Below, in pieces: positions 3,395-64,000 of a DNA stretch of 64,000 nucleotides; position 1 is the stretch's first letter, and every line of letters begins with the position of its first letter. The DNA lies in contig JAPPAV010000140.1 of the NCBI GenBank assembly GCA_026705345.1, positions 153,077 through 217,076 on the forward strand. The letters are read 5' to 3'. The notes beneath the pieces are model-generated. The model did no database searches, had not been told where the DNA came from, and was given only the letters and a program-made list of their open reading frames with translations. The DNA is from Gammaproteobacteria bacterium. Its GTDB lineage: Bacteria; Pseudomonadota; Gammaproteobacteria; Pseudomonadales; Azotimanducaceae. A program made the translations under genes and the position numbers.

Positions 3395-3553
3395 CGCGTT
3401 CTCACTCTCGCCACTCGAAGCTCGACCGACGTCCGCAATGCACGGCGTTGCCGACGCGCGCACCTTGCGCCTGAACGCGTCTTGGAGCACACGAAAAAGG
3501 CGACGCCAAATGGTCGCAACGCGACATGCCCAAACCGGAGTCCGGTCGTGCTC

Positions 3554-7717: not shown

Positions 7718-7741
7718 CCTTGCCGTAAGAAGTAGGGATTG

Positions 7742-7770
7742 AGGGCGAACCTTGGTTCGCCCTTTTTCTT
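7742..7770 (+). terminator. Rho-independent terminator of TonB receptor gene
   Basis: A perfect 10-bp stem AGGGCGAACC (7742-7751) and GGTTCGCCCT (7754-7763), tight TT loop, followed by a T-rich run TTTTCTTTC. It lies 25 nt after the receptor stop codon. Because any start of the next gene before 7770 would place its N-terminus inside this hairpin, it also argues for the GTG start at 7811 for that gene. Confidence 0.9.
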
Positions 7771-7810
7771 TCGGTGTAGGCTTAAACCAGCGCCACCAAC
7801 ACCCACTTCA

Positions 7811-9805
7811 GTGTCCGATAGCCAAGAGCGCGTACGCCAAGCGCAATACCTCCTGAGCCAGGGCGCACCCGCCCGGGCCGCCCAGTTGATGGGCGACGTG
7901 CTGACCGACGAACCGGACAACATCGAGGCCGCCTACGCGCTGGCGGTCGCCCAGCGACATCAACACGCGTGGACCGACGCACTCGACACGCTCACCGGGG
8001 TTCTCCGTCGCAAGCCGAACTTCGGACGCGCCCACCAGGAGGTCGGCTACAACCACATCGCCATGCAGAACTTTCCTCGCGCCGGCGCGGCATTCGAGCG
8101 CGCGGTCAACAACGACCCCTCGCTTGTAAACAGCTGGAAATGCCTCGCCAAGCTGTACCAGGACAGCGGCAACGCGAAACGATTCGCCACTGTCTCCGAT
8201 CAGCTTGTATTCCTCGAGTCTCTGCCCGCCGAACTGCTGACCGTCATCAGCTACCTGTCCGACGACCGCCTGGGCGACGCCGAGCGGGCGTGTAAGCACT
8301 TCCTACGGGAAAACAAGACCCACGCCGAGGGCATGCGGCTACTCGCCGAGATCGCGACACGGAACAAGACCTACGACGAGGCCGAGTTCCTGCTCGAGAG
8401 CTGCGTCGAATTCCATCCGGCGCACAAGAACGCGCGCATCCAGTACGTCAACATCCTCATGCGGGTGCAGAAGTTCGCCAAGGCGTTTGATGAAGCCCAA
8501 CGGCTTCTCGACGACCATCCCGAAGACACCGAGCACATCCGCGCGCTCTACGCCTCCGCCAGCGCCGGGATCGGGAGAAACAGTCAGGCTGTCGACAGCT
8601 ACGAACTGCTGATGCGCGAGCACCCCGACAACCACATCTTTCCGGTGTCACTGGCCCATGTATTGAAGGCCGACGGCGAATTCGACAGGGCGGTTGAGCA
8701 CTATCGCAAGGCGTATCGGATCAAGCCCGATCATGGGGATGCGTACTGGAGCCTCGCGAACACCAAATCCTACGAGTTCACGGGCGACGAACTGTCCCGC
8801 ATGGAGTCCCTGGCGGCAGACCCGGACACCGACGAGTCCGATCGAATCCAGGTCTGCTTCGCCCTGGGCGACGCGTACGAACGTCGGGGCGACCACGAGC
8901 CCTCGTTCCGCTACTACAGCCAAGGCAATGCGCTCAAACAGCCCCACACCTATCACAGCGCCAAGCATCTACAACTACGGATCGACAGCCAGATCGAAGT
9001 CTGTACCCGGGAACTCTTCGAATCCAAGCCGGGCGTCGGCTGCCCCGCCCCCGACCCGATCTTCATAGTCGGCCTGCCCCGTGCCGGTTCGACGCTCCTC
9101 GAACAGATCCTGTCATCCCACTCCCAGGTGGACGGCACGATGGAATTGCACAACATCCTGAACCTCGCCAAGCGTCTTCGCGGGCGCGACGAGCCGGGCG
9201 GGAAACCCCGCTATCCGGCGATACTCGCCGAGTTGGAGGACGGCTTCTTCCACCGCTTCGGGGAGCAGTTCATCGACGACACCCGGGCGTACCGGGGCGA
9301 CTCGGCGTTCTTCATCGACAAGATGCCGAACAATTTCTTCCACATCGGCCTCATCCGCCTGATCCTGCCCAACGCCAAGGTCATCGACGCCCGCCGGCAT
9401 CCCATGGCGTGCTGCTTCAGCGGCTACAAGCAGCTGTTCGGCGAAGGCCAGGAGTTCTCCTACGGCCTAGAGGAGATCGGCAACTACTACCGGCAGTACG
9501 TGAAGCTCATGGACCACTGGGACGAGGCACTGCCGAGGTTCGTGCTGCGCGTCCAGCACGAGGACGTCGTCGACGACCTCGAAGGCCAGGTTCGACGGAT
9601 TCTCGAGTTCTGCAGTCTGCCCTTCGAACAGGCGTGTATCGACTACCACCAAACCGAGCGCAGTATCCGCACGCCGAGTTCCGAACAGGTACGCCAGCCG
9701 ATCTTCCGCACGAGCCTCGAGCAGTGGCGAAACTACGAGCCTTGGCTGGGTCCCTTGAAGGACGCCTTGGGCCCCGAAATCCGAGAACGCTACGGAGTCG
9801 CGTAG
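7811..9805 (+). CDS. TPR-repeat sulfotransferase
   Basis: A protein of about 664 residues with roughly ten N-terminal tetratricopeptide repeats (for example AHQEVGYNHIAMQNFPRAGAAFERAVNNDP and AYWSLANTKSYEF) and a C-terminal sulfotransferase domain from about residue 415. The PAPS-binding 5' loop is FIVGLPRAGSTLLEQIL, and the 3'-phosphate site is around VIDARRHPMACCFS. Such enzymes transfer sulfate from PAPS, with the TPR part presumably holding the acceptor. I chose the GTG at 7811 because the frame's earlier start at 7739 overlaps the terminator of the preceding gene. The TAG stop (9803-9805) lies inside a dispersed repeat beginning CGTAGGGG. The acceptor is unknown; a surface or secreted molecule is plausible from the neighbouring TonB receptor. 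Confidence 0.9.
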   Translation: MSDSQERVRQAQYLLSQGAPARAAQLMGDVLTDEPDNIEAAYALAVAQRHQHAWTDALDTLTGVLRRKPNFGRAHQEVGYNHIAMQNFPRAGAAFERAVNNDPSLVNSWKCLAKLYQDSGNAKRFATVSDQLVFLESLPAELLTVISYLSDDRLGDAERACKHFLRENKTHAEGMRLLAEIATRNKTYDEAEFLLESCVEFHPAHKNARIQYVNILMRVQKFAKAFDEAQRLLDDHPEDTEHIRALYASASAGIGRNSQAVDSYELLMREHPDNHIFPVSLAHVLKADGEFDRAVEHYRKAYRIKPDHGDAYWSLANTKSYEFTGDELSRMESLAADPDTDESDRIQVCFALGDAYERRGDHEPSFRYYSQGNALKQPHTYHSAKHLQLRIDSQIEVCTRELFESKPGVGCPAPDPIFIVGLPRAGSTLLEQILSSHSQVDGTMELHNILNLAKRLRGRDEPGGKPRYPAILAELEDGFFHRFGEQFIDDTRAYRGDSAFFIDKMPNNFFHIGLIRLILPNAKVIDARRHPMACCFSGYKQLFGEGQEFSYGLEEIGNYYRQYVKLMDHWDEALPRFVLRVQHEDVVDDLEGQVRRILEFCSLPFEQACIDYHQTERSIRTPSSEQVRQPIFRTSLEQWRNYEPWLGPLKDALGPEIRERYGVA

Positions 9806-15605: not shown

Positions 15606-15692
15606 CGTAGGGACGAGGCTTATCCTCGCCCGTGCCGGGTTCCCGTGGCCTCGGTTCGATCGGCGCGGGACGCCACAAGGGCGTCCCCTACG
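15606..15692. repeat. CGTAGGGG-type intergenic palindromic repeat, copy 2
   Basis: An 87-bp element running from CGTAGGGACG to CGTCCCCTACG between two convergent genes. The left hairpin is imperfect (GACGAGGCTTATCCTCGCCC). The right end, 15667-15692, is identical over 26 bases to 9881-9906. The complement of its right border supplies the TAG stop of the PhyH-family gene ending at 15688. Confidence 0.8.
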
Positions 15693-16617
15693 GATCTCGA
15701 CGAGCCTTGGGGACCGGCAGCGCCTGCGACTGGTAGGGCAGCCCGAAACCCGCCAACTGCTTGAAGGTCTCCGGGTTGTCGCAGTCGTCGGCGAGTTCCC
15801 TGGGAAAGTGGTTCGGGATGTCGTCCTGGGGTTGAATCACCGCGTGCCGGTAGAAGTTCGAGATGGTGACCCTTAGTCCCGGGGCGGTGCGCGGATAGGC
15901 GCCGTGCCATAGCTGGCCGTGAAACGCGATCAACGAGCCGCGCGGGCACTCGACCGGGACGGCCTCCCGAGCGGCGGCAGGCTGCACCGGGTGGCTGGCA
16001 CGCAGATGGGATCCCGGGACGCAAGCCAACGGGCCGCTGTCCGGCGAGTACTCGGTCAGGCACCAGTTGCAGTTGGCGTTGAGCGCGACGCGGCCCCAGG
16101 GCTGGGGGACGCCGCCCTGGTCGCAATGCAGGCCCAGCGAGTCGCCGTAGCCGTCGCCCGCCCACTTGATGAAGCAGTTGTGGGAACTGAAACGCGTCGT
16201 ATGGCGGCCGATCATGTGCCGCATCAGCGCCACCGCCGCCGGGTTCACCGCCAGGTCGCGGAAGGCCCGGTCGAAGGTACACAACTGCATCAGTTGAAAC
16301 TGGCTCGGCTCGACTCCGGACATGCGTTCGATGATGCCCTTGTAGTCGCCGTAGTCGAGTTCGCACGCCGGGCCGTCCTCCACCGTGAACTTGCAGCCCA
16401 CCAGTTCCTCCGACTTGTCGAGCAGCAGCTGGGTCAGCCGGTCGATCTGCTCGTCGGTCACGCCGGTAACCGACGGCGGCACGACCGCATAGCCGTTCAG
16501 TTCGAGTTCCAGGACGTACGGTTCAAGGCCGAGTTCTGCGATCGCGGCGTTGCGATCCGGTCGGCTAGGTCCCGCTTTGGCCACCGTTTGCTGCCCTCCT
16601 CGATCTTCAGCCGCCAT
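15688..16617 (-). CDS. Phytanoyl-CoA dioxygenase (PhyH) family oxygenase
   Basis: A 309-residue Fe(II)/2-oxoglutarate-dependent oxygenase of the PhyH group, which typically hydroxylates unactivated carbons in small molecules. The iron triad is visible as H164 and D166 in GLHCDQGG and H238 in FHGQLWHGAY, and R249 in GLRVTI fits the 2-oxoglutarate clamp. The ATG at 16617 gives a complete domain; the open frame extends upstream but that part is antisense to the next gene. The gene lies 32 nt after an Asp/Asn-hydroxylase-family gene on the same strand. The TAG stop belongs to an intergenic repeat. The substrate is unknown; its operon-mates raise the possibility of protein or peptide hydroxylation. 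Confidence 0.85.
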   Translation of the reverse strand: MAAEDRGGQQTVAKAGPSRPDRNAAIAELGLEPYVLELELNGYAVVPPSVTGVTDEQIDRLTQLLLDKSEELVGCKFTVEDGPACELDYGDYKGIIERMSGVEPSQFQLMQLCTFDRAFRDLAVNPAAVALMRHMIGRHTTRFSSHNCFIKWAGDGYGDSLGLHCDQGGVPQPWGRVALNANCNWCLTEYSPDSGPLACVPGSHLRASHPVQPAAAREAVPVECPRGSLIAFHGQLWHGAYPRTAPGLRVTISNFYRHAVIQPQDDIPNHFPRELADDCDNPETFKQLAGFGLPYQSQALPVPKARRDP

Positions 16618-16649
16618 TGTTACACGGGTTCGAAGCTCGTCCGCGGCCG

Positions 16650-17612
16650 TCAATCCACGGTCGCATCCGGCGCCAAGGCCGCGTTCAACACCCGCTGCGC
16701 GAAGATCGCGTTGACGCCGATGCCGTTGCTGCTTGCGGTCAGGGCGCGCCGGTTCGGATGCAGCCGACCGCGCGTCGTCTCGATCAGCGCCCGGTAGTGC
16801 GCAAGACCTTCCGAGCGGTGCCCGTAGAGAAGCCAGGCCTCCCGCCAGTCGGCGGAGAAGTCCCGCATCAGCGACGCGTAGGCCGCCACCAGGCCGGGAT
16901 CGTTTCCGGTGTTGGCCGAGAAGTCGGCGATGAGGTCCTCGACCAGCGCGGTGCACTCGCCCGGTGCCATCACCGGCAGGCTGGCGAATCGTTCGGTGCG
17001 GATGTCCACGGCTTTGCCCGGCTCGAACGCCACGAACCGCGCCTGCTCCCCGGTCTGCAACGCCTCGTCGTTCTCGACGCGTCGAACGAGACCCCAGAAC
17101 CGCGATGAACCGGCCATGTCGACGACCAGGTGAATCCGGTCCTGGGTGCTTGGGTTGACGACGCGGTGCCGACGCCAAGAGTCGAAGATCCAGCACTCCC
17201 CCGCGCGCATGTGCAGTTGCTCGGGACCGCAATGGAAGATCACGCTCTCATTGGTGATGATCGGGATGTGAGCGCGCACCCGGCTGAACCAGTGGTAGTT
17301 GAAGTCCACGTGCAGGCTCACCTCGGCCCCGGCATCGAGCTTCATCAGGCGGGAGCGGGACAGCACCTCGCCGAAGCTCGCCATCACCTGGCGCAGGTAT
17401 TCGCAGCCGTCGAGATGCGGGGTGGGCTTCTTTTCGCCTTCGAAGGAATCGTTGTCGCCGCCACCGGTGGAGACCAACGCCACGGCCGAGTTTCCCGGCA
17501 AGCTGCTGGGGTGAGCCATCCAGGTCGCGGCCGGCAGCCGGCCGACCTCACGGGCCAGTTGCTCGGCATCGAACAACAATGGCAGGCGAATAAACGGTTT
17601 ACTCAGACGCAA
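16650..17612 (-). CDS. Aspartyl/asparaginyl beta-hydroxylase family protein
   Basis: A protein of about 320 residues with an N-terminal aspartyl/asparaginyl beta-hydroxylase-like jelly-roll domain. The conserved core runs from H101-V-D103 through RVRAHIPIITNESVIFHCG, HMRAGECWIFDSWRRHRVVN (distal His149) to RIHLVVDM, all family hallmarks for Fe(II) and 2-oxoglutarate binding. The C-terminal 150 residues are not recognised. The start is uncertain: I chose a TTG at 17612 preceded by GGAG, because the region before it has no family similarity; a GTG at 17726 is also open. It sits between a secreted repeat protein and a PhyH oxygenase. Relatives hydroxylate Asp or Asn residues in proteins or small peptides, so the repeat protein is a conceivable substrate. 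Confidence 0.8.
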   Translation of the reverse strand: MRLSKPFIRLPLLFDAEQLAREVGRLPAATWMAHPSSLPGNSAVALVSTGGGDNDSFEGEKKPTPHLDGCEYLRQVMASFGEVLSRSRLMKLDAGAEVSLHVDFNYHWFSRVRAHIPIITNESVIFHCGPEQLHMRAGECWIFDSWRRHRVVNPSTQDRIHLVVDMAGSSRFWGLVRRVENDEALQTGEQARFVAFEPGKAVDIRTERFASLPVMAPGECTALVEDLIADFSANTGNDPGLVAAYASLMRDFSADWREAWLLYGHRSEGLAHYRALIETTRGRLHPNRRALTASSNGIGVNAIFAQRVLNAALAPDATVD

Positions 17613-17738: not shown

Positions 17739-19844
17739 TCACATCGGCGCGAAAGAGACCGAGACCCGGGTGAGATAGACCTCCGTCAAACTCTCGAAGC
17801 CGGAGTCGACACCGAACAACAACCAGATCCGGCCGCTCGGAGAGGCAGACACGGGTTCCGGTATGGATTGGCGCGGGAAGGTCTTTCGTTCCCATCGACG
17901 CCGCTGCTCGCAGCTTCGGGAGTTGGCCATGTTGCCGAGCACCACGGCCTGGTCGCCGCCGTTGGACTGATTTCCGATGTCGATGTTCATCCGCAGGTAG
18001 GAGCCTTCGCCGACCGGCTCGACTTCGGAAGCACCGGCCTTGATCCAGACGCTCTCGCCCGGCGCGCCGCCGACGCCCGCGCAGCGGGCCGGCACGTCGG
18101 TGGCGATTTCCGCGGTTGCAGTAACGACATAGCGCACGCCGGGCACGAGGCCGCCAACATGGCCCTTGTAGAACATGAAGAGGTCGGCGCTGCGGTTGAC
18201 CCCGGATAGGAACAGGGCCGACTTCGACTCCAGCGGTGGCGGGAGCTGCCGGTGGTCGGACGTCAATTCGTAGGGATCCGGGTCGTGCGCCGGGTAGTCG
18301 GCGAAGTCGGCGACGAACCCTTGTGTTCCGCGGTGGAAGTCGGCGGTGAAGGACACGGCATCCGTCGGCTCGCTCGACAGGTTCGTGATCTGGCCGTTGG
18401 GGCTTGCAAGCAGGTTGAGCACCGTGATCGGTTGGTCCGATTCCACCGAGAGCTGCCACCTTCCGGCACCATCGCCGAGCGCCCCTTCGAACCCGTCGCC
18501 ACCCACCTCTAGCTCCTGCGACGTGAGTGTCCGCGACGCACCGGGGACAACAGCCAGGGCCACCTCGCCCGTTGACATCGCGCCGAGGTCGTCAATGCCC
18601 GTGATCGCCACCTGCGCGGTCGCTTCGCCCGGGTTGACGAGCCGCAGGCGACTCGCCTGCTCAACTTCGGTGTCGGGATTGAAAATGGCGATGCGGTAAA
18701 CGCCGCCTTCGCGCGGCACCGTATCGTGCATCGCCGTCAGCAGACCGCCGGTCGTCCGGAGGTAGACGAGCACTTCGATGGCGAGGTCGCTCGTCAACTC
18801 CAGCCGCCAGTCGCCGTCGCCCACACCCGTGCTCCCGGTCAGGCCTTTCCCGGGGTTGCCCAATTCCAGGTCGTCCGAATTGAAGTGATTTGTCTCGTTC
18901 GCGCCGAGGGACATCGCCAGCGGCTCGTAACCGCGACCCGTGTCGTCGAACGCCGTGATCGATACCTCCCCGGCCACGGCCGAGTGGTTGATCACGCGCA
19001 CGAAACCCTGACGGCCAAGCGGATCGGAAGCGCGTGGAAAAAACGGCACGCCGTGGACTCCGTCGGTCTCGTTGCCCGGGGTCGTCGACAGGTTCGTCAG
19101 GAGACCATCCGGGCTCGACAGCAGGCCGAGCGCAGCGACCGCCTGTTCCGATCGCACGGCAAGCTGCCATTTGCCCGCGCCGTCGCCCAGCGATCCGTCC
19201 TGTCCGGCGCCGTTCCCAGACTCCAGCTCAGACGCGCTATATGTCCTCGCCGCCTGGCTTGGCACATCCACTGTCACCGTATCGGTGCTTCCCGTCCCGT
19301 CGGTACCGGTGATGTCCACCGTTGCGTCAGCCTCGCCAATGTTGACCAGCCGCAACAGGCTCTCCTGGTTCCGGTTGGACCCCGGATTGAAAGTCGCTAG
19401 CCGGTGGCCGCCGTCTTCCCACGGCGCGGTGTCTCGTATCGAGGTGAGAAAGCCGTCGCTCGTGCGGATGTAGGCCAAGACATCGATATCGAGCCCGGTG
19501 GCTAGTACGAGGCGCCAGTCCCCTTCACCCGCACCCGTCGCGCCGGTCAGACCCTCGGCCGGGTTGCCGTTCTCCAGGTCGTCGGAGTTGAAGTGCGCCG
19601 TTTCGTTCGCGCCGAGCGACAACGTCAACGGACCGTAGGACTGCCCGTGGTCGTCGAATGCCTCGATCGACACCGTCCCGGAATCGGGCGAACGGTTGAT
19701 CACCCGTACCAAGCCCGACCTGCCCCGCGGGTCCGAGGCCGCCGGGAGGAACGGGATCGCCTGAGGAGACTCCGATGCCGACGCCGCGCCGGCGACGCCG
19801 ACGGTCGCCTGGGCGAATAGGAGGGCCACGCCCCGTACCCGCAT
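17739..19844 (-). CDS. Secreted protein with four tandem about 117-residue modules
   Basis: A protein of about 701 residues that I cannot name. From the ATG at 19844 it has a signal peptide ([23 protein letters not shown]). Four related modules of about 117 residues follow in an A-B-A-B order. A modules open with FxPxASDPxGRxGxVRVIN and include [17 protein letters not shown] and GEGDWRL or GDGDWRL; B modules open with ATFNPGSN or AIFNPDTE followed by RLVN-GEA and contain ELE-G, LGDGAGxWQL and TNLS. A distinct C-terminal domain of about 190 residues contains [20 protein letters not shown] and may be a beta-sandwich. Such modules are known to me from surface proteins of marine gammaproteobacteria. 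It heads a likely operon with two hydroxylase-type genes and is divergent from the carnitine operon. Confidence 0.82.
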
Positions 19845-20031
19845 CCGGAACGCAACCCCACTCCCAGTCTGCCGAGCTGCCGCCAACGATCACAATCCCG
19901 TGTTCAGGACCGCCTGTAGTGTACGCGTAGCCCCTGCAAGCTTCGGACCTCGACGGAGGCCGCGTCCCGTACCCAAGACATCGATGGGCGGTGTACAGTC
20001 CGATGCGCAAGCGCTTGAGGAGGGCGACGAT

Positions 20032-20919
20032 ATGAACTCCGAAGTCGTGATCACCTGCGCGGTGACCGGGGCCGGCGACACCCTCGGCAAGCACCCCGAC
20101 ATTCCCGTGACGCCAGCCGAGATCGCCGCTTCCGCCCTCGACGCCGCCAAGGCCGGCGCGGCGATCGTGCATTGCCATGTCCGCGATCCGGCCACTGGCA
20201 AGGGCTGCCGGGACGTCGCCCTCTACCGGGAGGTGGTGGCGCGGATCCGCGAAAGCGAGACCGACGTCGTCATCAACCTCACCGCCGGAATGGGCGGCGA
20301 CCTGGTGATCGGTCCCGACGACACCCCCACCGCGTTCGGCGAGGACACGGATCTCGTCGGCGCGGTCGAGCGGCTCCCGCACGTCGAGGAACTGCTGCCC
20401 GAGATCTGCTCATTGGACTGCGGCTCGTACAACTTCGGGGAAGGCAGTCTCGTCTATGTTTCGACGCCAGACATGCTCCGCCGGGGCGCGCTCCGGATTC
20501 GCGAACTCGGCGTCAAGCCGGAACTGGAGATCTTCGACACCGGCCACCTGAGCTTCACCCTGCAGATGCTCGGCGAGGATCTGCTCGACGAACCGCCGCT
20601 CTTCCAGCTCTGTTTCGGCATCCCCTGGGCAGCGCCGGCAGATGTCGGTGTATTCAAGGCCTGCGTCGATATGCTGCCACCCGGCGCCAACTGGACGGCT
20701 TTCGCCATCAGCCGCAACCAAATGCCCTTCGCCGCGCAATCCGTGTTGCTTGGCGGCCATGTCAGAGTGGGCCTTGAGGACAACCTGTACCTGTCGCGCG
20801 GCGTGTTCGCCAGCAACGCGCAGTTGGTCGAGCGGGCTCGGAACATCGTGGAGATGCTCGGCGCCCGGGTCCTGGGTCCCGACGAAGCCCGGGCCAAGTT
20901 CGGCCTCCGCCAGCGCTGA
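20032..20919 (+). CDS. Beta-keto acid cleavage enzyme (BKACE, DUF849), probable dehydrocarnitine cleavage
   Basis: A 295-residue BKACE-family TIM-barrel enzyme, which condenses a beta-keto acid with acetyl-CoA and cleaves it to acetoacetate and a new acyl-CoA. Zinc ligands H47 and H49 sit in [14 protein letters not shown], and the C-terminal [17 protein letters not shown] is a strong family signature. The ATG at 20032 has GAGGAGG 8 nt upstream. The next gene, 15 nt on, encodes an L-carnitine dehydrogenase-like protein. That pairing matches the known cdhC-cdhA arrangement of Pseudomonas, where 3-dehydrocarnitine plus acetyl-CoA gives betainyl-CoA and acetoacetate. Specificity for dehydrocarnitine is therefore inferred from context as well as family. 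Confidence 0.88.
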
Positions 20920-20934
20920 CAGGTCGAGGTCGTT

Positions 20935-21918
20935 TTGACCGAGCGCGTCGAGACCTTGGCCGTCATCGGCGCCGGCGTGATCGGCGCCGGTTGGACCGCC
21001 CGGGCCCTGGCCCAGGGACTCGATGTGGTTGCATGGGACATTTCGCCGCGTTGGGAGAGCCGGCTCCGCTCTGCCGTGGACAACGCTTGGCCCGCCCTCG
21101 AAAGGCTGGGCCTTCATCCCGACGCCAGCACGGCCCGGCTGCGTTGTGCCGAGACCCTGGCGGATGCCTGCCGAAACGCCGAGTTCGTGCAAGAGAGTGC
21201 GCCGGAGCGTCTCGACCTAAAGCGCGGTTTGATGGCGCGGATCGACGGCGCCACGGACCCCGACGTACCGATCGCCTCAAGTACATCCGGCCTATTGCCG
21301 ACCGCTCTGCAGGCCGATTGCCAACACCCGGAGCGGGTCGTGGTCGGCCATCCGTTCAATCCCGTCTACCTGCTGCCCCTCGTGGAAGTCCTTGGCGGCA
21401 AGCAAACGGCCCCGGAATGCATCGACCAGGCGACGGCTTTCTACACCGGCCTCGGCATGCACCCCTTGAAGGTGCGCAACGAAATCGACGGCTTCCTGTC
21501 CGACCGCCTGCAGGAGGCCCTGTGGCGGGAAGCGTTGCACCTCGTCGACGACGACATCGCGACCACCGAGGAACTCGATGCCGCGATCACGTTCGGGCCG
21601 GGTTTGCGGTGGGCGGTCATGGGCACGTGTCTCGCCTACCACATGGCCGGCGGCGATGGCGGCATGCGCCATTTCATGCGCCAGTTCGGTCCGACGTTGG
21701 AAGCACCTTGGACACGACTCGAAGCTCCCGAACTGACCGACGATCTAATCCATAAGGTCGCGTCCGGCACACAACGGCAAGCCGCGGGACGCACCGTGAA
21801 GGAACTCGAGCGGTTGCGGGACGACTGCCTCGTTTCCATCATGGAAGCACTGCGCAAACATGGCGTTGGTGCCGGCAGGACGCTCGCCGACCACCAAGCG
21901 CGCCTAGACACCGAGTAG
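20935..21918 (+). CDS. lcdH: L-carnitine 3-dehydrogenase (3-hydroxyacyl-CoA dehydrogenase superfamily)
   Basis: A 327-residue NAD-dependent dehydrogenase that oxidises L-carnitine to 3-dehydrocarnitine. The Rossmann motif [24 protein letters not shown] begins at about residue 10. The catalytic histidine is in [20 protein letters not shown], and the C-terminal [21 protein letters not shown] is typical of carnitine dehydrogenases rather than fatty-acid enzymes. The only sensible start is TTG at 20935, preceded by a weak GAGG. It follows the BKACE gene by 15 nt and precedes an acyl-CoA dehydrogenase by 10 nt. A betainyl-CoA thioesterase, present beside this pair in Pseudomonas (CdhB), is not seen here. 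Confidence 0.88.
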
Positions 21919-21928
21919 GAGGCGCGGC

Positions 21929-23089
21929 ATGGACTTCGGACTCACAAGCGAACAGCAGCTGGTCGTCGACACCGTACGCGACTTCGTCGAGCGTGAACTC
22001 TACCCCCACGAGGAGGCGGTGGAGCGGACCGGTCGCGTGCCCCCGGAGCTTGGCGAGTCGATTAGGCGCAAGGTCATCGAACTCGGCTTCTATGCGCCGA
22101 ATCTGCCGGTCGAGGCGGGTGGCGGCGGGCTCGACCAGGTGACCTTCACGCTGCTCGAACGGGAACTCGGCCGCGCATCCATGGCGCTGACCGTGTTCTG
22201 GGGCCGACCGTCCGGGATCCTCTTGGCCTGCAACGCCGAGCAGCGCGAACGCTACCTCCTTCCCAGTGCCCGGGGCGAGCGACTCGATGCGCTGGCGATG
22301 ACGGAACCCGGTGCCGGTTCGGACGTGCGCGGCATGCAGTGCTCAGCGCGTCCCGACGGCGACGACTGGATCTTGAACGGCACCAAGCACTTCATCTCCC
22401 ATGCCGACGTCGCGGACTTCGTCATCGTGTTCGTGGCCACCGGCGAGGAGGACACGGCGCGCGGTCCAGCGAAGCTCATCACCTGTTTCCTGGTGGATCG
22501 GGGCACGCCCGGCTTCGACATCCGCCCCGGCTACGACTCGGTCTCGCACCGCGGCTACCACAACGCGGTTCTCGCATTCGAGGATTGCCGACTGCCTTGT
22601 GCGCAGATTCTCGGCGAACCGCACCGGGGATTCGACCTGGCCAACGACTGGCTCTTCGGTACCCGGCTGACCGTCGCCGCCATGTGCGTCGGCCGGGCCC
22701 GGCGCGCCTTCGACCTAGCCCTTGCCTACGCCGCCGAACGCGAACAGTTCGGGCAGCCGATCGGCAAGTTCCAGGGCGTTTCGTTCAAGCTCGCCGACAT
22801 GGTCACCGAGATCGATGCGGCGGACTGGATGACGCTCGCCGCCGCCTGGCGCCTGGACCGCGGCCTGCCGGCGAACCGGGAGATTGCCTCCGCCAAGCTC
22901 TACGCTTCCGAGATGCTGGCCCGGGTCACCGACGAGGCGGTGCAGATCCACGGCGGCATGGGCCTGATGAGCGACCTCCCGCTGGCAAGGTTCTGGCGGG
23001 ACGCCCGGGTCGAACGAATCTGGGACGGCACGTCCGAGATTCAACGTCATATCATCGGGCGCGAGTTGCTGCGCCCGTTGGGTGCCTAG
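21929..23089 (+). CDS. Acyl-CoA dehydrogenase (CaiA-like; probable butyrobetainyl-CoA dehydrogenase)
   Basis: A 386-residue FAD-dependent acyl-CoA dehydrogenase. Family motifs are LAMTEPGAGSDVRGMQ around residue 130, the NGTKHFISHAD segment, the arginine-containing AYAAEREQFGQPIGKFQGV and the C-terminal QIHGGMGLMSDLPLARFWRDARVERIWDGTSEIQRHIIGREL. The ATG at 21929 follows TAGGAGG, overlapping the preceding stop. In this operon, beside a CaiD-like hydratase and a CoA ligase, the natural substrate is gamma-butyrobetainyl-CoA, which it would oxidise to crotonobetainyl-CoA. CaiA of enterobacteria catalyses the reverse reduction. The specificity is inferred from neighbours only. Confidence 0.87.
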   Translation: MDFGLTSEQQLVVDTVRDFVERELYPHEEAVERTGRVPPELGESIRRKVIELGFYAPNLPVEAGGGGLDQVTFTLLERELGRASMALTVFWGRPSGILLACNAEQRERYLLPSARGERLDALAMTEPGAGSDVRGMQCSARPDGDDWILNGTKHFISHADVADFVIVFVATGEEDTARGPAKLITCFLVDRGTPGFDIRPGYDSVSHRGYHNAVLAFEDCRLPCAQILGEPHRGFDLANDWLFGTRLTVAAMCVGRARRAFDLALAYAAEREQFGQPIGKFQGVSFKLADMVTEIDAADWMTLAAAWRLDRGLPANREIASAKLYASEMLARVTDEAVQIHGGMGLMSDLPLARFWRDARVERIWDGTSEIQRHIIGRELLRPLGA

Positions 23090-23091
23090 CG

Positions 23092-25161
23092 ATGGGCCGG
23101 CCAGCGAGGCGACTCGCGCGGTTGCTGTCGCCGCGCACCATCGCCGTGATCGGCGGAACGCCTGCCGCACGCGTCGTCGAGCAATGCAACCGGATGGGCT
23201 TCGGGGGCCCGGTCTGGCCGGTACATCCGAGCCGAGACGAGGTGGCGGGTAGACCGGTTTTCCGGTCGGTCGCGGACCTCCCCGAAGCCCCGGATGCCGC
23301 CTTCGTCGGCGTGAACCGCCATGCCACGGTGGATGCCGTGGCGGACCTCGCGGCATGCGGGGCCGGCGGCGCGGTCTGCTACGCCGCCGGCTTCCTCGAG
23401 GCCAAGGACGGCGCAAAGCTGCAGCAAGAGCTCGTCGAGGCAGCCTCGGGGATGCCGATCATCGGGCCGAACTGCTATGGCGCAATCAACTTCCTCGACG
23501 GTGCGCCGCTGTGGCCGGACCAGCACGGCGGCCTGCGGCTTGGCCCGTCTGCCCGCGGTGTCGCGATCGTCACCCAATCCTCCAACATCGCCATCAGCAT
23601 CACCATGCAGCGACGCGGATTGCCGGTCGCCTACGTGGTCACCGCCGGCAACCAGGCCCAGCTTGGCGTGGCCGAACTGGCGGGGGCTCTCCTCGACGAC
23701 GATCGCGTCAGTGCGATCGGACTGCACATCGAAGGGTTCGAATCGGTTCCCGCCTACGAGGATCTGGCTCGCAGCGCGCGGCAGCGCCGGGTGCCGGTCG
23801 CGGTCGTGAAGGTCGGTCGGTCGACGCGGGGGAGCGCGGCAGCGCTGACCCACACGGCATCCATCGCGGGCTCCGATGCCGGTGCCGACGCTTTCCTGCG
23901 ACGCTTAGGATTCGCCCGCGCGAACGGCATCCCCGAGCTCTTGGAAACGTTGAAGCTACTGCATGTCCACGGCCCGTTGGATGGGCCCCGGTTGGGCGCG
24001 ATGTGCTGTTCCGGCGGGGAAGCGAGCATCGTCGCGGACGCTGCGGAAGAGGCCGGTGTCGTGCTTCCCGAATTGACGACCCGACATGCCGATGACGTCG
24101 CCGAAACGGTGCATCCGCTGGTCACGGTGGCGAATCCTTTCGACTACCACACGTTCAGTTGGGGCGATTCGGATGCGCTTACCAAGACCTTCACCACTTT
24201 CGCCCGGGACACCTACGACGCGACGCTCCTGATGCTGGACTTCCCGCGACCGGACCGCTGTGCCGACGACGATTGGGATGTGACGCTTCAAGCCTTTGAA
24301 CGTGCAATGCACGACACCGGGCGCAAGGGCATCGTCGCCGCGACGCTCGCCGAGAACCTCCCCGAGCACCGTGCCCGGGCGTTGATCGATCGTGGCCTCG
24401 CGCCGCTCGGCGGCATCCGCGAAGCCCTTGGCGCCGTGAAGGGCGCGGCAATGATCGCCGCCGCATGGAGCGAGGGCGAATACCACCCACTCCTACCCGT
24501 CTCGTGCACGTCCGGCGATGCGGTCGCGTTGGACGAGGCGACATCGAAGCGGCTGCTTTCCGAGTACAGCGTGGCGGTTCCCGAAGGGTCCGTCGTCCAA
24601 GATGCCGAGACCGCCGTTGACTTCGCCGGGTCGCTCGGCGGCAGCGTCGCAGTCAAGGCCCTCGGCGTCGCACACAAGACCGAGTGCGGCGCGGTTCGCA
24701 CGGGCCTGTCCGACCCCGACGACATTCGGGTGGCGGCCCGGGATCTGCTCGCCCTCGGAAACGGGATCCTCGTCGAACGTTTCGAGGCGGGCGCCGTTGT
24801 CGAGTTGATCGTCGGCATCACCCGGGACACCCAACTCGGGCTCATGCTCACGATCGGATCGGGGGGCGTGCTCGTCGAGCTGCTCGCCGATACCGCTACC
24901 CTGCTCCTGCCCGTGGGCGAATCGGACGTGCGAAGAGCCCTGGCCGATCTTCGCTGCGCGCCGTTGTTGCAGGGTCATCGGGGTCGCGAGGCAGCGGACG
25001 TGGACGCCGCCGTGGACGCAGTTCTCGGTATTGCCCGGTTCGCCGTGGACCACCAGGCCTCGCTGGAGGAGTTGGACGTCAACCCACTGGCCGTCGCTCC
25101 CGAAGGTCGCGGGGCTCGGGCGCTCGACGCCCTGGTGCGCCTACGGAGCAGCGCAGCGTGA
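23092..25161 (+). CDS. ADP-forming acyl-CoA synthetase (acetate-CoA ligase family)
   Basis: A 689-residue fused two-subunit acyl-CoA synthetase (NDP-forming). The N-terminal CoA-binding Rossmann domain includes RTIAVIGGTPAARVVEQC and PIIGPNCYGAINFLDG. The central succinyl-CoA-ligase-like domain carries the probable phosphohistidine in ALTHTASIAGSDAG near residue 262. The C-terminal ATP-grasp part includes VAVKALGVAHKTECGAV and ASLEELDVNPLAVAPEG. The ATG at 23092 is 2 nt after the preceding stop, and the gene ends in a GTGA overlap with the caiD-like gene. It probably activates gamma-butyrobetaine, carnitine or crotonobetaine as a CoA thioester, replacing the AMP-forming CaiC of enterobacteria; this is inference. 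Confidence 0.88.
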   Translation: MGRPARRLARLLSPRTIAVIGGTPAARVVEQCNRMGFGGPVWPVHPSRDEVAGRPVFRSVADLPEAPDAAFVGVNRHATVDAVADLAACGAGGAVCYAAGFLEAKDGAKLQQELVEAASGMPIIGPNCYGAINFLDGAPLWPDQHGGLRLGPSARGVAIVTQSSNIAISITMQRRGLPVAYVVTAGNQAQLGVAELAGALLDDDRVSAIGLHIEGFESVPAYEDLARSARQRRVPVAVVKVGRSTRGSAAALTHTASIAGSDAGADAFLRRLGFARANGIPELLETLKLLHVHGPLDGPRLGAMCCSGGEASIVADAAEEAGVVLPELTTRHADDVAETVHPLVTVANPFDYHTFSWGDSDALTKTFTTFARDTYDATLLMLDFPRPDRCADDDWDVTLQAFERAMHDTGRKGIVAATLAENLPEHRARALIDRGLAPLGGIREALGAVKGAAMIAAAWSEGEYHPLLPVSCTSGDAVALDEATSKRLLSEYSVAVPEGSVVQDAETAVDFAGSLGGSVAVKALGVAHKTECGAVRTGLSDPDDIRVAARDLLALGNGILVERFEAGAVVELIVGITRDTQLGLMLTIGSGGVLVELLADTATLLLPVGESDVRRALADLRCAPLLQGHRGREAADVDAAVDAVLGIARFAVDHQASLEELDVNPLAVAPEGRGARALDALVRLRSSAA

Positions 25162-25940
25162 GCGCCCCTTTGAAAACCCGCACCGAGGGCGGCGTCCTCG
25201 AAGTCGTCCTTGACCGGCCCAAGGCGAATGCCATCGATCTCGCCACCAGCCGACTCATGGGCGAGATCTTCGAGCGATTCCGCGACGACGCGGCGTTGCG
25301 TGTCGCCATCGTCACCGGCGCCGGCGAAAGGTTCTTCAGCGCGGGTTGGGACCTCAAGGCGGCAGCCGACGGCGATCCCGTGGATGGCGACTACGGACCC
25401 GGCGGGTTCGGCGGCATGCAGGAATTGCCCGACCTGAACAAGCCCCTCATCGCCGCCGTCAACGGCATGGCGGTCGGCGGCGGCTGGGAACTCGCGCTGT
25501 CCTGCGACCTGATCATCGCGTCCAAGACGGCAACCTTCGCCCTGCCCGAAATCCGTGCCGGCACCCTCGCGGATGCGGCGTCCATCAAGCTGCCCAAGCG
25601 AATTCCCTACCACGTGGCCATGGACCTCCTGCTCACCGGCCGTTCGATGGATGCCGACGAAGCCCACCGTTGGGGCGTGGTCAACGAGGTCGTCGAACCC
25701 GAGGCAATGCTCGAACGCGCCTGGGGAATCGCGCGCCAACTCGCGGACGGTCCGCCCCTGGTCTTCGCCGCCATCAAGGAGTTGGTACGCGAAGCCGAAA
25801 GCCTGCGCGCCCAGGAAGCGCTGCGCCGGGTGGGCAAGCGTGAATTCCCCACCGTGGATCGGCTCTACGACAGCGAAGACCAGCTCGAAGGGGCGCGCGC
25901 GTTCGCGGAGAAACGCAACCCCAAGTGGAAGGGACATTGA
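25158..25940 (+). CDS. caiD: CaiD-like carnitinyl-CoA dehydratase/crotonobetainyl-CoA hydratase
   Basis: A 260-residue crotonase-fold protein, one residue shorter than E. coli CaiD and similar to it along the whole length: LEVVLDRPKANAID, VAIVTGAGERFFSAGWDLKA, YGPGGFGG, LIAAVNGMAVGGGWELALSCD, RWGVVNEVVEP and the end GARAFAEKRNPKWKGH. Both catalytic glutamates (in GGGWELAL and FALPEI) are present, although the following GTLADAAS differs from the usual G-PD-GG. It would interconvert crotonobetainyl-CoA and L-carnitinyl-CoA. The GTG start at 25158 overlaps the stop of the CoA synthetase gene by 4 bp, so translation is coupled. It is the last gene of the carnitine operon and is followed by an intergenic repeat. 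Confidence 0.9.
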   Translation: MSAPLKTRTEGGVLEVVLDRPKANAIDLATSRLMGEIFERFRDDAALRVAIVTGAGERFFSAGWDLKAAADGDPVDGDYGPGGFGGMQELPDLNKPLIAAVNGMAVGGGWELALSCDLIIASKTATFALPEIRAGTLADAASIKLPKRIPYHVAMDLLLTGRSMDADEAHRWGVVNEVVEPEAMLERAWGIARQLADGPPLVFAAIKELVREAESLRAQEALRRVGKREFPTVDRLYDSEDQLEGARAFAEKRNPKWKGH

Positions 25941-25974: not shown

Positions 25975-26018
25975 GGGCGACCGCGCGCCCTAGCGGGCGC
26001 GATAGGGTCGCCCCTACG
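25975..26018. repeat. CGTAGGGG-type intergenic palindromic repeat, copy 3 (half element)
   Basis: A single hairpin half of the repeat family, from GGGCGACC to GGTCGCCCCTACG, with an inner GCGCGCCC-TA-GCGGGCGCG stem. The complement of its right part closely matches the left hairpin of copy 1 (9801-9836). The left CGTAGGGG border is missing. It separates the convergent caiD-like and sulfotransferase genes, and its right border provides the TAG stop of the sulfotransferase. Confidence 0.75.
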
Positions 26019-26640
26019 TTGTCTCGTAGCCGAAAACCTCGAAATCCCGGCGGTAGAACGCGGTCACGGCGGCCACTAGTTCGTCGTCGTAGTAGCTCCC
26101 GAACGCATCGTGGTCGGTGGTGTTGCTTCGCTCTAGGCCGCGCTCGGCAATGCCGATCTGCCCGCAGATCGCGGCGAAGGATTCGTCCAACGTTTCGTAG
26201 CGACCGACGCAGTCCATGCCGAGCCTCCCGGCCTCGTCCAGAAGCATGTCGACCTGGGGTCGGACCAGTACGCGTTGCCGGAACCGGGGGACCGTCAGCG
26301 CGCGTTTCATGAATGCCGTCTCACCACCGCGATAGCCGGGGTTGCGCTTGTTGAGCATGGCGCAAACGGACACGAAGCGATCGTACGGGTTTCGAACGAA
26401 GGCGAACTTGAAGTAGTCGCGCCAGACCGTGGACGGCAAACTCGCTTGCACCTGTCTCAACGTGAGGTGGCCGTGATTGAACCGGGCTAGCGCCGCCACC
26501 GGCATCCGCACCTCGGCGGTTAGCGACTGCTGCTGCCAGTCGTCGTCGCCAAGCACGGGGCCGAGCGCCGTCCGGATGGCATGCGTACCCGTTCTCGGCA
26601 CCGCGAAGAAGATGAACCGGTGCCGGTGCGAGACGATCAC
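26014..26640 (-). CDS. Small sulfotransferase-family protein
   Basis: A 208-residue cytosolic-type sulfotransferase. The 5'-phosphosulfate loop is FIFFAVPRTGTHAIRTAL near the N-terminus, and the 3'-phosphate site is FKFAFVRNPYDRFVSVCAML around residue 80. It ends in the common FYRRDFEVFGYE helix. It presumably transfers sulfate from PAPS to a hydroxyl group. Its ATG at 26640 overlaps the stop of a PhyH-family oxygenase gene by 4 bp, so the two are translated together and may act in sequence: hydroxylation, then sulfation of the new hydroxyl. The stop codon lies in an intergenic repeat. The acceptor is unknown. Confidence 0.85.
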   Translation of the reverse strand: MIVSHRHRFIFFAVPRTGTHAIRTALGPVLGDDDWQQQSLTAEVRMPVAALARFNHGHLTLRQVQASLPSTVWRDYFKFAFVRNPYDRFVSVCAMLNKRNPGYRGGETAFMKRALTVPRFRQRVLVRPQVDMLLDEAGRLGMDCVGRYETLDESFAAICGQIGIAERGLERSNTTDHDAFGSYYDDELVAAVTAFYRRDFEVFGYETT

Positions 26641-27452
26641 GGACCGGCGAGCCCCATTGTCTGTCGAACCTGGCGATCCAGTTCCTGCTGTCGAGCCACG
26701 GTCGCGGGTTCGAGATCGACGGTTGCCGGCGTGTCCTCTCCGAAGTGTCCGTGGGTGTCGACGCCGCTCACGAGAATTGCGGTGTCGCGATCATGCCGGG
26801 TCTGGCGCATGTGCGTCGCTAAGTACTGAGCATTGAAGCCGATGCGCCGGTCGCTGCTCTCGTTGGGAAGGGAGGCGTGCAAGGTCCAGCCGTGGTGGAA
26901 GGATGCCTCGCCTGGCAATAGCTCGCAGAAGACGGCATTGCTCTCGTCGACCCCCTCGACGGTCTGGCCTTGGTAGAGCACGTTCGAGTCGTCTGGCGCT
27001 AAGGAGTGGCTGCGGCGTCCGAACCGGTGGCTACCGGGAACCATCCGCATCCCGCCACTCGATTCGTTGGCAGCCGACAAGGCAACCCACATCGACACCT
27101 GGTCCTCGCCGTCGAGGCCCCAATAGGCGAGATCCTGGTGCCAGCTAACGTGAGACGACGAATGCGGCTCCTTGACGATGTAGGTGCCGTTCCAAAGAAG
27201 GACATCGGGGCCGATCAACGCATTCACGACGGCGAGCACGCGCGGATGCGTGGCAAGTTCCATGGGCGAGCGGAGGATAGTGTAGACCTTGCCCTGGTAG
27301 TGAAGATCGCCAAAGGATCGCTCCGCCCGCTCCATCCGCCGACGGTGCGCAAGCGTTTGTGTTTCGTCGAGGATGCGCACCGGCGACAGGAAACCGTCCC
27401 GCGCGAACCGTTCCCGCCAATCGTCGGCGGCGTTGGATTCCGACTGCTTCAT
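26637..27452 (-). CDS. PhyH-family Fe(II)/2-oxoglutarate oxygenase
   Basis: A 271-residue PhyH-type oxygenase similar in layout to ectoine hydroxylase. The iron ligands are H105 and D107 in SWHQDLAYWGL and H192 in HHGWTLHAS; R203 in DRRIGFNAQY fits 2-oxoglutarate binding. GGMRMVPGSHRFG is a family signature. It is coupled by a 4-bp overlap to the downstream sulfotransferase and is divergent from a CaiB-family gene with a 176-nt gap. The carnitine operon lies on the other side of the sulfotransferase, so a quaternary amine substrate is conceivable but unproven. Confidence 0.86.
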   Translation of the reverse strand: MKQSESNAADDWRERFARDGFLSPVRILDETQTLAHRRRMERAERSFGDLHYQGKVYTILRSPMELATHPRVLAVVNALIGPDVLLWNGTYIVKEPHSSSHVSWHQDLAYWGLDGEDQVSMWVALSAANESSGGMRMVPGSHRFGRRSHSLAPDDSNVLYQGQTVEGVDESNAVFCELLPGEASFHHGWTLHASLPNESSDRRIGFNAQYLATHMRQTRHDRDTAILVSGVDTHGHFGEDTPATVDLEPATVARQQELDRQVRQTMGLAGP

Positions 27453-27628
27453 GGTGACTCACCGGTCGACGCCAACACCGCGATGATCGCGCCATGGACA
27501 TTGGACACGCAAGACGCGACCGCTTCGCGGTGATCCCGAGAGTTCGCAAAGCGAATTCTCCCGGCACCGGTTGTCTTTGCCGCAAGATACTATTAGCGCT
27601 TTCGTTCCTAGGGGATGCAACCCTGACC

Positions 27629-28807
27629 ATGGCCGGCACCCTGGATGGCATCCGCGTTCTCGACCTGACCACCATCTACTCCGGCCCCATCGCCGCTTCG
27701 ATCCTCGGCGACCAGGGGGCGGACGTCGTCAAGGTCGAGTCCCCCGACGGTGACTTCATGCGCCATGGGGGCGCGTCCGAACACAACGGCGTCGGCGGCG
27801 CATTCGCCATGATGAACCGCAACAAGCGTTCCATCGTCATCGACCTTAGCCTCGACGAAGGCCGGGGCGTGTTCGAGGTGCTCGTCGAATCCGCCGACGT
27901 GGTGATGGAGAACTACCGACCGGGCGTGATGGAGCGTTTGAAGATCGGGTACGAATCACTCAAACGCATCAATCCGCGACTCGTCTTCGCGTCCATCAAC
28001 GGCGTCGGCCACACCGGGCCCTATGCCAAGCGGCGGGTCTACGACGCCATCGTCCAGTCGATCTCCGGCATCGGGTCGCTGCAGGCTGACCCGGCGACCG
28101 AGCGACCTCTCCTCGTCAATTCGCTGATCTGCGACAAGATCACCTCGATGACCGCGGCACAGGCCATCGCATCCGCGCTAGTCGCCCGGGAGCGCACCGG
28201 CATCGGCCAGCGGGTGGACATCGCCATGCTGGACTCGGCGCTGTTCTTCCTGTGGCCGGACAACATGCTGAACTACACCTTCGCCGGCGACGAAAAACCG
28301 CACCAGGGCGGCCGCTCGCACGAGCGCATGGTTCACGAAACCCGTGACGGGTACATCTGCACGATGCCCGTACAGCGCCGGGAATGGGAAGGCGTGTTCA
28401 AGGCCCTGGATCTTCCCAACCTGTTCGAGGACGAGCGTTTCCGCACCCAGGCCGCCCTCGACTCGGGCCTCTTCCGGCGCACGTTGGACGAAGGCTACGC
28501 CAGCTTCGACACCGACGATCTCGCCCAGCGCCTGGAGCGCCACGAGGTGCCGTTTGCCATCATCAATCCCCGGGATGCCGTGATCGACGACCCCCAGGTC
28601 AAGGCCATGGATGCGCTGCTCGAGTTCGAACATCCCGTCGCCGGCCCCATGCGCCAGGCGAGGCCGCCCGCCCGGTTCGGCGACACCCCTTCGGAGATTT
28701 TCCGTTGTTCCCCGGAACTCGGCGAGCACACCCGCGAAGTGCTCCGGGAAGCGGGCCTCTCGGACGACGCGATTACCGACCTCCGGGCGCGGAAGATCGT
28801 GCGCTGA
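27629..28807 (+). CDS. CaiB/BaiF-family (family III) CoA-transferase
   Basis: A 392-residue family III CoA-transferase, moving CoA between carboxylic acids in the cytoplasm. The N-terminal GIRVLDLTTIYSGPIAASILGDQGADVVKVE and NRNKRSIVIDL are hallmark motifs, and D169 in LLVNSLICDKIT matches the catalytic aspartate position of formyl-CoA transferase. The ATG at 27629 starts the family domain; earlier codons of the frame lack similarity, and only a weak AGGGGA lies upstream. It is near, but not in, the carnitine operon, so it may exchange CoA among carnitine, butyrobetaine and crotonobetaine as CaiB does. Many other acids are possible for this family. Confidence 0.88.
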   Translation: MAGTLDGIRVLDLTTIYSGPIAASILGDQGADVVKVESPDGDFMRHGGASEHNGVGGAFAMMNRNKRSIVIDLSLDEGRGVFEVLVESADVVMENYRPGVMERLKIGYESLKRINPRLVFASINGVGHTGPYAKRRVYDAIVQSISGIGSLQADPATERPLLVNSLICDKITSMTAAQAIASALVARERTGIGQRVDIAMLDSALFFLWPDNMLNYTFAGDEKPHQGGRSHERMVHETRDGYICTMPVQRREWEGVFKALDLPNLFEDERFRTQAALDSGLFRRTLDEGYASFDTDDLAQRLERHEVPFAIINPRDAVIDDPQVKAMDALLEFEHPVAGPMRQARPPARFGDTPSEIFRCSPELGEHTREVLREAGLSDDAITDLRARKIVR

Positions 28808-63387: not shown

Positions 63388-63398
63388 GGCAGGCTTAG

Positions 63399-63454
63399 GT
63401 TCCGCCGTTTAGGCGGAACGAACAATCTATCCGGGGCGGCCTAGGTCGCCCCGG
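63399..63454 (+). terminator. Two hairpins after the third TonB receptor gene
   Basis: Hairpin one has perfect arms GTTCCGCC (63399-63406) and GGCGGAAC (63412-63419) around GTTTA. Hairpin two is the palindrome CCGGGGCG ... CGCCCCGG (63431-63454), whose centre GCCTAGGT can pair further. Neither has a T-run, so termination may be Rho-dependent or bidirectional, as the tmRNA gene approaches from the other strand. Confidence 0.5.
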
Positions 63455-63668
63455 AATTCGTTGTGATTCACAGGTTTTGGCAATACCTATGCGGGGCTGA
63501 GCCTGGGCAATGTGTGTCTGCATATCAGCTCGAGCGAGATTTCATATGGGTCACCACGGTCCGCATAGTAATGTGCCGGTTTAACCGGAACGTGGTCATT
63601 GCCAAAAGACTCGAATGGGTGAACACGTCACGATGGCGAATCACCAGTTCTCTGTCGTTTGTATATTG
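63455..63668. other. Gap between TonB receptor terminator and tmRNA
   Basis: About 210 bases, less G+C-rich than the surroundings, with no gene I can support. A small palindrome CCGGTTTAACCGG lies near 63570-63583. tmRNA 3' ends are common integration sites, but I see no integrase gene and no duplicated tmRNA end here. Confidence 0.5.
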
Positions 63669-64000
63669 TGGTGGAGGCGGCGGGAGTCGAACCCGCGTCC
63701 GACGGTTCTCCGTCATCGGCTCTACATGCTTAGGCCGTCTATTGATTTAGCCCGTTGGCGACCCGGCGGACAGGGTGCGTGAGGGCGAGCCTCGTTCAAG
63801 TTTCGCGGTCGCCTCCGAGGCGCGGACCCCCGCTATCCCGTGGACCTTTGCCCTCGAATCGCCGTCACGGGCGCCGATTCATCGAGGTAAGCAGCTTACG
63901 CTGCTAGTGCGTAGTTTTCGTCGTTGGCAACTATAAAAAGTTGCATCAACTGCCGTCTGTGTCGAGATAGATGCCGGAGCCGGTGACGGCTTTCTGGTCC
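63669..64000 (-). ncRNA. ssrA: Transfer-messenger RNA (tmRNA), 5' end outside window
   Basis: The minus strand carries the 3' part of tmRNA, which rescues stalled ribosomes. The tRNA-like 3' end, with T-arm GGGTTCGACTC and the GCCGCCTCCACCA acceptor end, finishes with CCA at 63669. The tag reading frame lies at 63896-63928 and encodes ANDENYALAA followed by TAA, a gamma/betaproteobacterial type. Pseudoknot regions occupy the part between. The 5' acceptor strand, expected within the next few dozen bases, is beyond base 64000. Confidence 0.96.

Follow-up and report, generated by a model that had tools for sequence, protein, structure and literature searches.

A five-gene run for a predicted route from gamma-butyrobetaine via carnitine to glycine betaine in a gammaproteobacterium of the Azotimanducaceae

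Does one compact gene set lead from gamma-butyrobetaine through carnitine to glycine betaine? The question is raised by five neighbouring genes in a gammaproteobacterium of the family Azotimanducaceae (assembly GCA_026705345.1, contig JAPPAV010000140.1), which we analysed within a window, meaning here the whole 64,000-nucleotide stretch at positions 153,077 to 217,076 of the forward strand of that contig. The genes encode a beta-keto acid cleavage enzyme (BKACE), an L-carnitine dehydrogenase (CDH), an acyl-CoA dehydrogenase (ACDH), an ADP-forming acyl-CoA ligase and a CaiD-like hydratase, names that an earlier note on this DNA had proposed and that agree with the domains and models found here (Table 1). 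The note had also read the run as a route from butyrobetaine to betaine, and our analysis indicates that this is probably what it does. Co-occurrence with CDH, a modular layout, residue motifs, and GbdR-like regulators and transporters beside relatives of the run support the reading, although we infer every substrate and the direction of every step, and the route from butyrobetaine to carnitine is already known in outline from strain HK4.

In the predicted pathway, the ligase would charge gamma-butyrobetaine with CoA, the flavin-dependent ACDH would make crotonobetainyl-CoA, and the CaiD-like hydratase would turn this into L-carnitinyl-CoA. CoA would then leave carnitinyl-CoA, CDH would oxidise L-carnitine with NAD to dehydrocarnitine, and BKACE would convert dehydrocarnitine and acetyl-CoA into betainyl-CoA and acetoacetate; the BKACE substrate is predicted from the gene neighbourhood, as BKACE adjoins CDH in relatives. 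In the last step, glycine betaine would be released from betainyl-CoA. Relatives likely use a thioesterase for this, either as a domain of CDH or as the product of a gene elsewhere, and this genus would use other means. Such a pathway would join, in one likely operon, two routes that are usually described apart. The betaine could be used further, because a PF16350 domain, which we take to occur in dimethylglycine and sarcosine dehydrogenases, is encoded on this contig about 2.6 kb ahead of the window, and a GCV_T protein is encoded at 2057-3490 of the window.

The run occupies 20032-25940 as five plus-strand open reading frames with no internal stop codons, and the tight packing described earlier (gaps of 2-15 nt or overlaps) is borne out by distances of 15, 10, 2 and -4 nt in gene order. 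All five genes are under purifying selection relative to four relatives (dN/dS 0.04-0.22; 0.04-0.12 for BKACE). From the tight packing and the conserved order, they likely form one operon and would be co-transcribed. BKACE scores 318.5 bits with PF05853 (gathering cut-off 24.8, E 4.5e-95) and CDH 457.3 bits with NF005471 (curated cut-off 414). The ligase has the CoA-binding, Succ_CoA_lig and ATP-grasp_5 domains and the conserved phosphohistidine of the ACD superfamily, and the ACDH is of the short-chain acyl-CoA dehydrogenase type.

Table 1. Genes of the run, with predicted roles and window coordinates.
Product	Coordinates	Strand	Start codon	Domains or models
BKACE	20032..20919	+	ATG	PF05853
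L-carnitine dehydrogenase (CDH)	20935..21918	+	TTG	327 aa, NF005471
Acyl-CoA dehydrogenase (ACDH), predicted gamma-butyrobetainyl-CoA dehydrogenase	21929..23089	+	ATG	acyl-CoA dehydrogenase domains
ADP-forming acyl-CoA ligase (ACD superfamily), predicted gamma-butyrobetaine:CoA ligase	23092..25161	+	ATG	CoA_binding_2, Succ_CoA_lig, ATP-grasp_5
CaiD-like hydratase, predicted crotonobetainyl-CoA hydratase	25158..25940	+	GTG	NF002936 best model

Searched for in other genomes, the five-gene arrangement was found on Rhizobium plasmids and in SAR116 records. The order BKACE-CDH-ACDH-ligase-CaiD is repeated on the two Rhizobium plasmids examined, where the genes are annotated in turn as 3-keto-5-aminohexanoate cleavage protein, carnitine 3-dehydrogenase, acyl-CoA dehydrogenase, acetate--CoA ligase family protein and carnitinyl-CoA dehydratase, with a GlxA-family regulator upstream (best model GbdR, under its cut-off) and ABC transporter genes downstream. 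The same order is seen in L029, L030 and L032, three records with SAR116 in their titles, and the gene order was read again in these and in L054 and L056. A ligase-based scan of named genome contigs found 22 loci in Gammaproteobacteria and Alphaproteobacteria, several of them titled SAR116, in which the neighbours include ACDH (19), a CaiD-like hydratase (19), CDH (18), BKACE (16) and all five genes (13); several of these loci end at contig ends, and the set overlaps our genus set (L021, L025, L027 and L041 correspond to G004:C5, G003:C123, G009:C3 and G002:C635). Order and strand repeat across classes, and the arrangement is not due to chance. The earlier note knew of no account of this exact gene set as a unit. 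The set is not unique, because the Rhizobium plasmids carry annotations for each of these genes in this order, but we found no description of the five genes as a unit in the open literature, an absence that is weak because subscription papers and patents lay outside the search.

The association of the ligase with carnitine metabolism extends beyond gene order. In a phylum sample of 398 genomes, the ligase clade (41% identity or more) is present in 37 (at least 495 bits; the next match drops to 260 bits). CDH (E 1e-50 or better) occurs in all 37 of these genomes versus 28 of the 361 others, a figure that may be low because at most two ligase and five CDH candidates were scored per genome, and in 7 of the 36 genomes that hold paralogous ligases only. 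No genome of the sample has the ligase clade without CDH, and 28 have CDH without the ligase. The Fisher value for this co-occurrence, 1e-34, overstates independence because one genus (g156, inferred Rhizobiaceae) supplies 8 of the 37 genomes. ACDH, ligase and hydratase could instead be an ordinary module for short-chain or branched acids and a mere neighbour of the carnitine genes, as the short-chain type of the ACDH and the presence of acetate and 4-hydroxybutyrate ligases in the ligase superfamily could suggest. The co-occurrence with CDH, the clade-specific aromatic motif of the ligase (see below) and the closeness of the hydratase to Escherichia coli CaiD all speak against it; we consider this alternative highly unlikely.

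The run behaves as two modules, BKACE-CDH, leading from carnitine to betaine, and ACDH-ligase-CaiD, the predicted butyrobetaine feeder. In the 36 genomes that remain when the window's own is set aside, we found near the ligase ACDH in 34, a CaiD-like hydratase in 31, a gene like the Rhizobium regulator in 24, BKACE in 22, CDH in 21 and all five genes of the run in 21. In 15 of the 37 genomes the ligase has no CDH within 10 kb; CDH is found elsewhere in the assembly, with BKACE and a thioesterase domain adjoining it in the four such loci examined (L122-L125). The division into modules follows from nine of these 15 genomes, because the ligase still stands beside ACDH and a close CaiD there; the remaining six comprise L104 (genome G373), where the contig ends at the ligase, and the distant clade members L117-L121. 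Around the paralogous ligases of relatives (11 loci), the short flanks gave no match to ACDH or to the CaiD-like hydratase (about 1.5 kb or less, matches under 40% of the query not listed). The regulator-like gene is found in L023, from another lineage, and was not found in the window-genus loci L021, L025, L027, L049-L053, L126-L128 and L130.

A few loci show layouts of their own. On a Sinorhizobium numidicum plasmid (L055), a separate PaaI-family thioesterase follows a BKACE of 32% identity, and ligase-CaiD is followed by two other acyl-CoA dehydrogenases. Locus L038 has a second set, hydratase-CDH-BKACE (19083-21887), downstream of a complete run and after a Rhizobium-regulator-like gene. 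In genus g156, a protein of about 217 amino acids is encoded between BKACE and CDH (L086, 11904-12554, minus strand; also L087); it has HD-like motifs by eye and matched neither Pfam nor NCBIfam at the thresholds applied.

Conserved residues, read from ortholog alignments of 41 chosen loci with identity thresholds applied, are consistent with the predicted roles. The ligase contains the histidine segments LTHTASIAG and GVAHKTECG, and the HT phosphohistidine segment is kept in 37/37 rows. It also carries the motif NPFDYHTFSW, which takes the form NP(L/F)DYHT(F/Y)xW in the clade, with Tyr352 in 36/37 rows and Trp357 in 37/37; all 11 paralogues read NP(V/I)D and lack these aromatics. The motif aligns to the Trp391 region of DddX (7cm9), an ATP-dependent dimethylsulfoniopropionate lyase that resembles the present ligase in its ADP-forming ligase superfamily, its phosphohistidine segment, the aromatics of this region and, if the prediction holds, its onium substrate; by our own reading of the alignment, Trp391 itself falls on His353, beside Tyr352. 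On the evidence of docking and mutation, the DddX paper names Trp391 and Phe435 as residues that bind the sulfonium group. We infer that the ligase motif may likewise cage the trimethylammonium group. Unlike in DddX, however, the position of the base Glu432 is variable in the ligase clade (Asp, Glu, Ala, Ser and others). Because this position is not conserved, we do not expect the clade to work as lyases, and a DddX-like lyase was rejected on the same ground.

In the ACDH, Asp366 occupies the acyl-CoA dehydrogenase base position (Asp in 29/37 rows, Glu in 8/37), which we take to be that of the Glu base of short-chain acyl-CoA dehydrogenase; E. coli CaiA has Gly there. Glu111 and Glu131 of the hydratase, presumably the paired glutamates of the crotonase site, are found in 35/35 rows and in CaiD. 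The base position also bears on the idea that the ACDH-like protein, fed by the ligase, is a trimethylamine lyase acting on butyrobetainyl-CoA. BbuA of Emergencia timonensis is such an enzyme, described as an acyl-CoA dehydrogenase-like flavoprotein acting on the same CoA ester (PMC8364193). Its product, crotonyl-CoA, would leave CaiD, CDH and BKACE without a role, and Asp or Glu stands at the base position in 37/37 rows, as in oxidising acyl-CoA dehydrogenases, the BbuA sequence itself lying outside the comparison; we give this idea only a very slight chance.

The earlier note had likened the last three genes to the cai chemistry of enterobacteria with an ADP-forming ligase instead of CaiC. 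The likeness holds for the hydratase, which is 51% identical to E. coli K-12 CaiD, and a CaiC query found no match at any ligase locus. The ACDH fits less well, being 29% identical to CaiA and having an acid where CaiA has Gly. Furthermore, the E. coli system (caiTABCDE) runs from carnitine to butyrobetaine without oxygen, although the same CoA esters are predicted here.

Several points, including the scoring limit on the phylum counts given above, weigh against a butyrobetaine pathway. The hydratase scores 321.8 bits with the CaiD model NF002936, below its cut-off of 500, yet this is its top-scoring model, and the ACDH reaches 185 bits with the CaiA model NF002885 against a cut-off of 540. 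Among the most distant members of the ligase clade, of whose role we are less sure, L117-L120 lack a close CaiD and L121 lacks any partner nearby. In two genomes of the genus, G007 (L126, 7743-10406) and G008 (L127, 7599-10303), BKACE-CDH-CaiD are contiguous while ACDH and ligase are absent; CaiD can therefore occur without the other two feeder genes. The release of CoA from carnitinyl-CoA and betainyl-CoA is without explanation in this genus. Finally, Table 2 of the review that describes the HK4 route lists this strain under 'butyrobetaine hydroxylase', in conflict with the review's own text (PMC2131755).

The gene content of G007 and G008, together with the top NCBIfam model of the ACDH (acryloyl-CoA reductase, below cut-off), would fit a feeder module that acts on crotonobetaine or D-carnitine instead of gamma-butyrobetaine, with the ACDH serving another acyl-CoA. 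Nevertheless, ACDH stands beside the ligase in 34/36 phylum-sample loci, even where BKACE-CDH lies elsewhere, and by pathway logic an oxidation is needed from butyrobetaine alone. This substrate assignment is unlikely in our view, and gamma-butyrobetaine remains the probable starting compound.

How betainyl-CoA is freed differs between the genus and its relatives. The CDH of SAR116 (L030) and Rhizobium (L054) carries a C-terminal 4HBT_2 domain (PF13279, residues 352-471) that the window CDH lacks. The model for the fused carnitine 3-dehydrogenase (NF005716, about 495 amino acids with this domain) gives 763 and 936 bits with the two fused proteins and 386 bits with the window CDH, against a cut-off of 592. 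We read the domain as a betainyl-CoA thioesterase on the basis of a dual-function Sinorhizobium enzyme, as reported in a citing paper. A profile built from 21 CDH-fused domains found a family member, fused or separate, in all 19 ligase-holding genomes tested outside the window's genus and in none of the 10 genus genomes with this CDH (six ligase-holding and four more); G015, whose CDH is different (44% identity), has one. Inferred Rhizobiaceae with an unfused CDH have a separate family member elsewhere in the genome, and in a quick ligase tree their clade groups with the gammaproteobacterial one at moderate support (SH-aLRT 86).

The earlier note had found neither a thioesterase nor a dedicated transporter, and neither gene is present in the five-gene run. 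The thioesterase gap, however, is wider than was claimed: the usual family was undetected throughout the genome, where PF13279 has a single match below its cut-off. For transport, two BCCT-family transporters are encoded on other contigs of the genome; a SAR116-type glycine betaine binding protein (OpuAC) had no match in eight genomes including the window's, in a search that had no positive control.

ADP-forming ligases are reversible, and for this reason the ligase is a tempting stand-in for the thioesterase. It might act as a reversible hub that charges gamma-butyrobetaine at the expense of ATP and runs backwards on carnitinyl-CoA and betainyl-CoA, returning ATP, an idea we hold to be doubtful. 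If true, butyrobetaine activation would be free, the acetyl-CoA that BKACE consumes would bring a net ATP for each betaine, and the pathway of this genus would be accounted for without a detectable betainyl-CoA thioesterase. As a required substitute, the reverse ligase was rejected: G006, G007 and G008 hold BKACE-CDH, and neither a thioesterase family member nor a ligase of this clade was found in them. In G006 (L128, 6295-8509), what follows BKACE-CDH is a stump of ACDH (residues 1-82) beside one of the hydratase (183-259), and the locus has no ligase; this is either a deletion remnant or an assembly fault. Either betainyl-CoA is freed in some other way in this genus, or these three genomes have stopped using the pathway.

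The release of CoA alone, from both betainyl-CoA and carnitinyl-CoA, may fall to a hotdog thioesterase of general function or to the class III CoA-transferase encoded at 27626-28807; we give this slightly less than an even chance. The genome has three PF03061 matches, and the transferase gene is near the run in G000, G003 and G004 and also in G006, which no longer has the ligase; the protein of the two closest relatives is 96% identical and encoded near the run. By contrast, the loci of G009, G011, G013, G007 and G008 lack the transferase gene near the run, and the protein scores 143 with the CaiB model against a cut-off of 413, so that a CaiB role is unsupported. Its top model, succinate--glutarate CoA-transferase, is below cut-off.

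A patent on HK4 butyrobetaine genes reportedly exists and may already cover the five-gene set. According to a review, Rhizobium/Agrobacterium-like strains HK4, HK13 and HK1349 convert butyrobetaine to L-carnitine by reactions like those of fatty acid degradation, followed by carnitine dehydrogenase (PMC2131755). HK4 is placed there close to Rhizobium, a group that carries the five-gene order. What is new in our prediction is that the CoA route uses an ADP-forming ligase and that, in this genus, no betainyl-CoA thioesterase of the usual family is detectable. The half made up of BKACE and CDH is the same as the Pseudomonas step from carnitine to betaine, as the earlier note had recognised, though the assignment of the Pseudomonas cdh names to enzymes is partly our assumption. 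The P. aeruginosa operon caiX-cdhCAB-hocS, with divergent CdhR, likewise has BKACE and carnitine dehydrogenase and, as described, no ligase, acyl-CoA dehydrogenase or CaiD-like gene, having instead its own substrate-binding protein and an acylcarnitine hydrolase (PMC5806209). GbdR-like AraC-type regulators stand beside many relatives of the present run, a further likeness to P. aeruginosa. An Arctic SAR11 island combines butyrobetaine and carnitine genes, including CDH, BKACE and an acyl-CoA thioesterase, but an annotated butyrobetaine dioxygenase (BBOX) replaces the CoA route (PMC12421898). CdhABC proteins rose in Ruegeria pomeroyi proteomes on N-osmolytes including carnitine (PMC12478193).

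The run thus offers a candidate gene set for the aerobic CoA route from gamma-butyrobetaine to betaine, a route used in industry, and presents it, in bacteria of soil and sea, as a pair of movable modules. It also names a ligase clade with its own motif, for which the plasmid annotation says 'acetate--CoA ligase family protein'. If the assignment is right, butyrobetaine use would be predictable from sequence, and a clear question is raised, namely how this genus frees betainyl-CoA.

Elsewhere in the window, two phytanoyl-CoA dioxygenase family and two sulfotransferase family proteins are encoded (15691-16650, 26640-27452, 7739-9802 and 26017-26640), and ARAGORN calls a transfer-messenger RNA with an odd tag peptide at 63247-63762.

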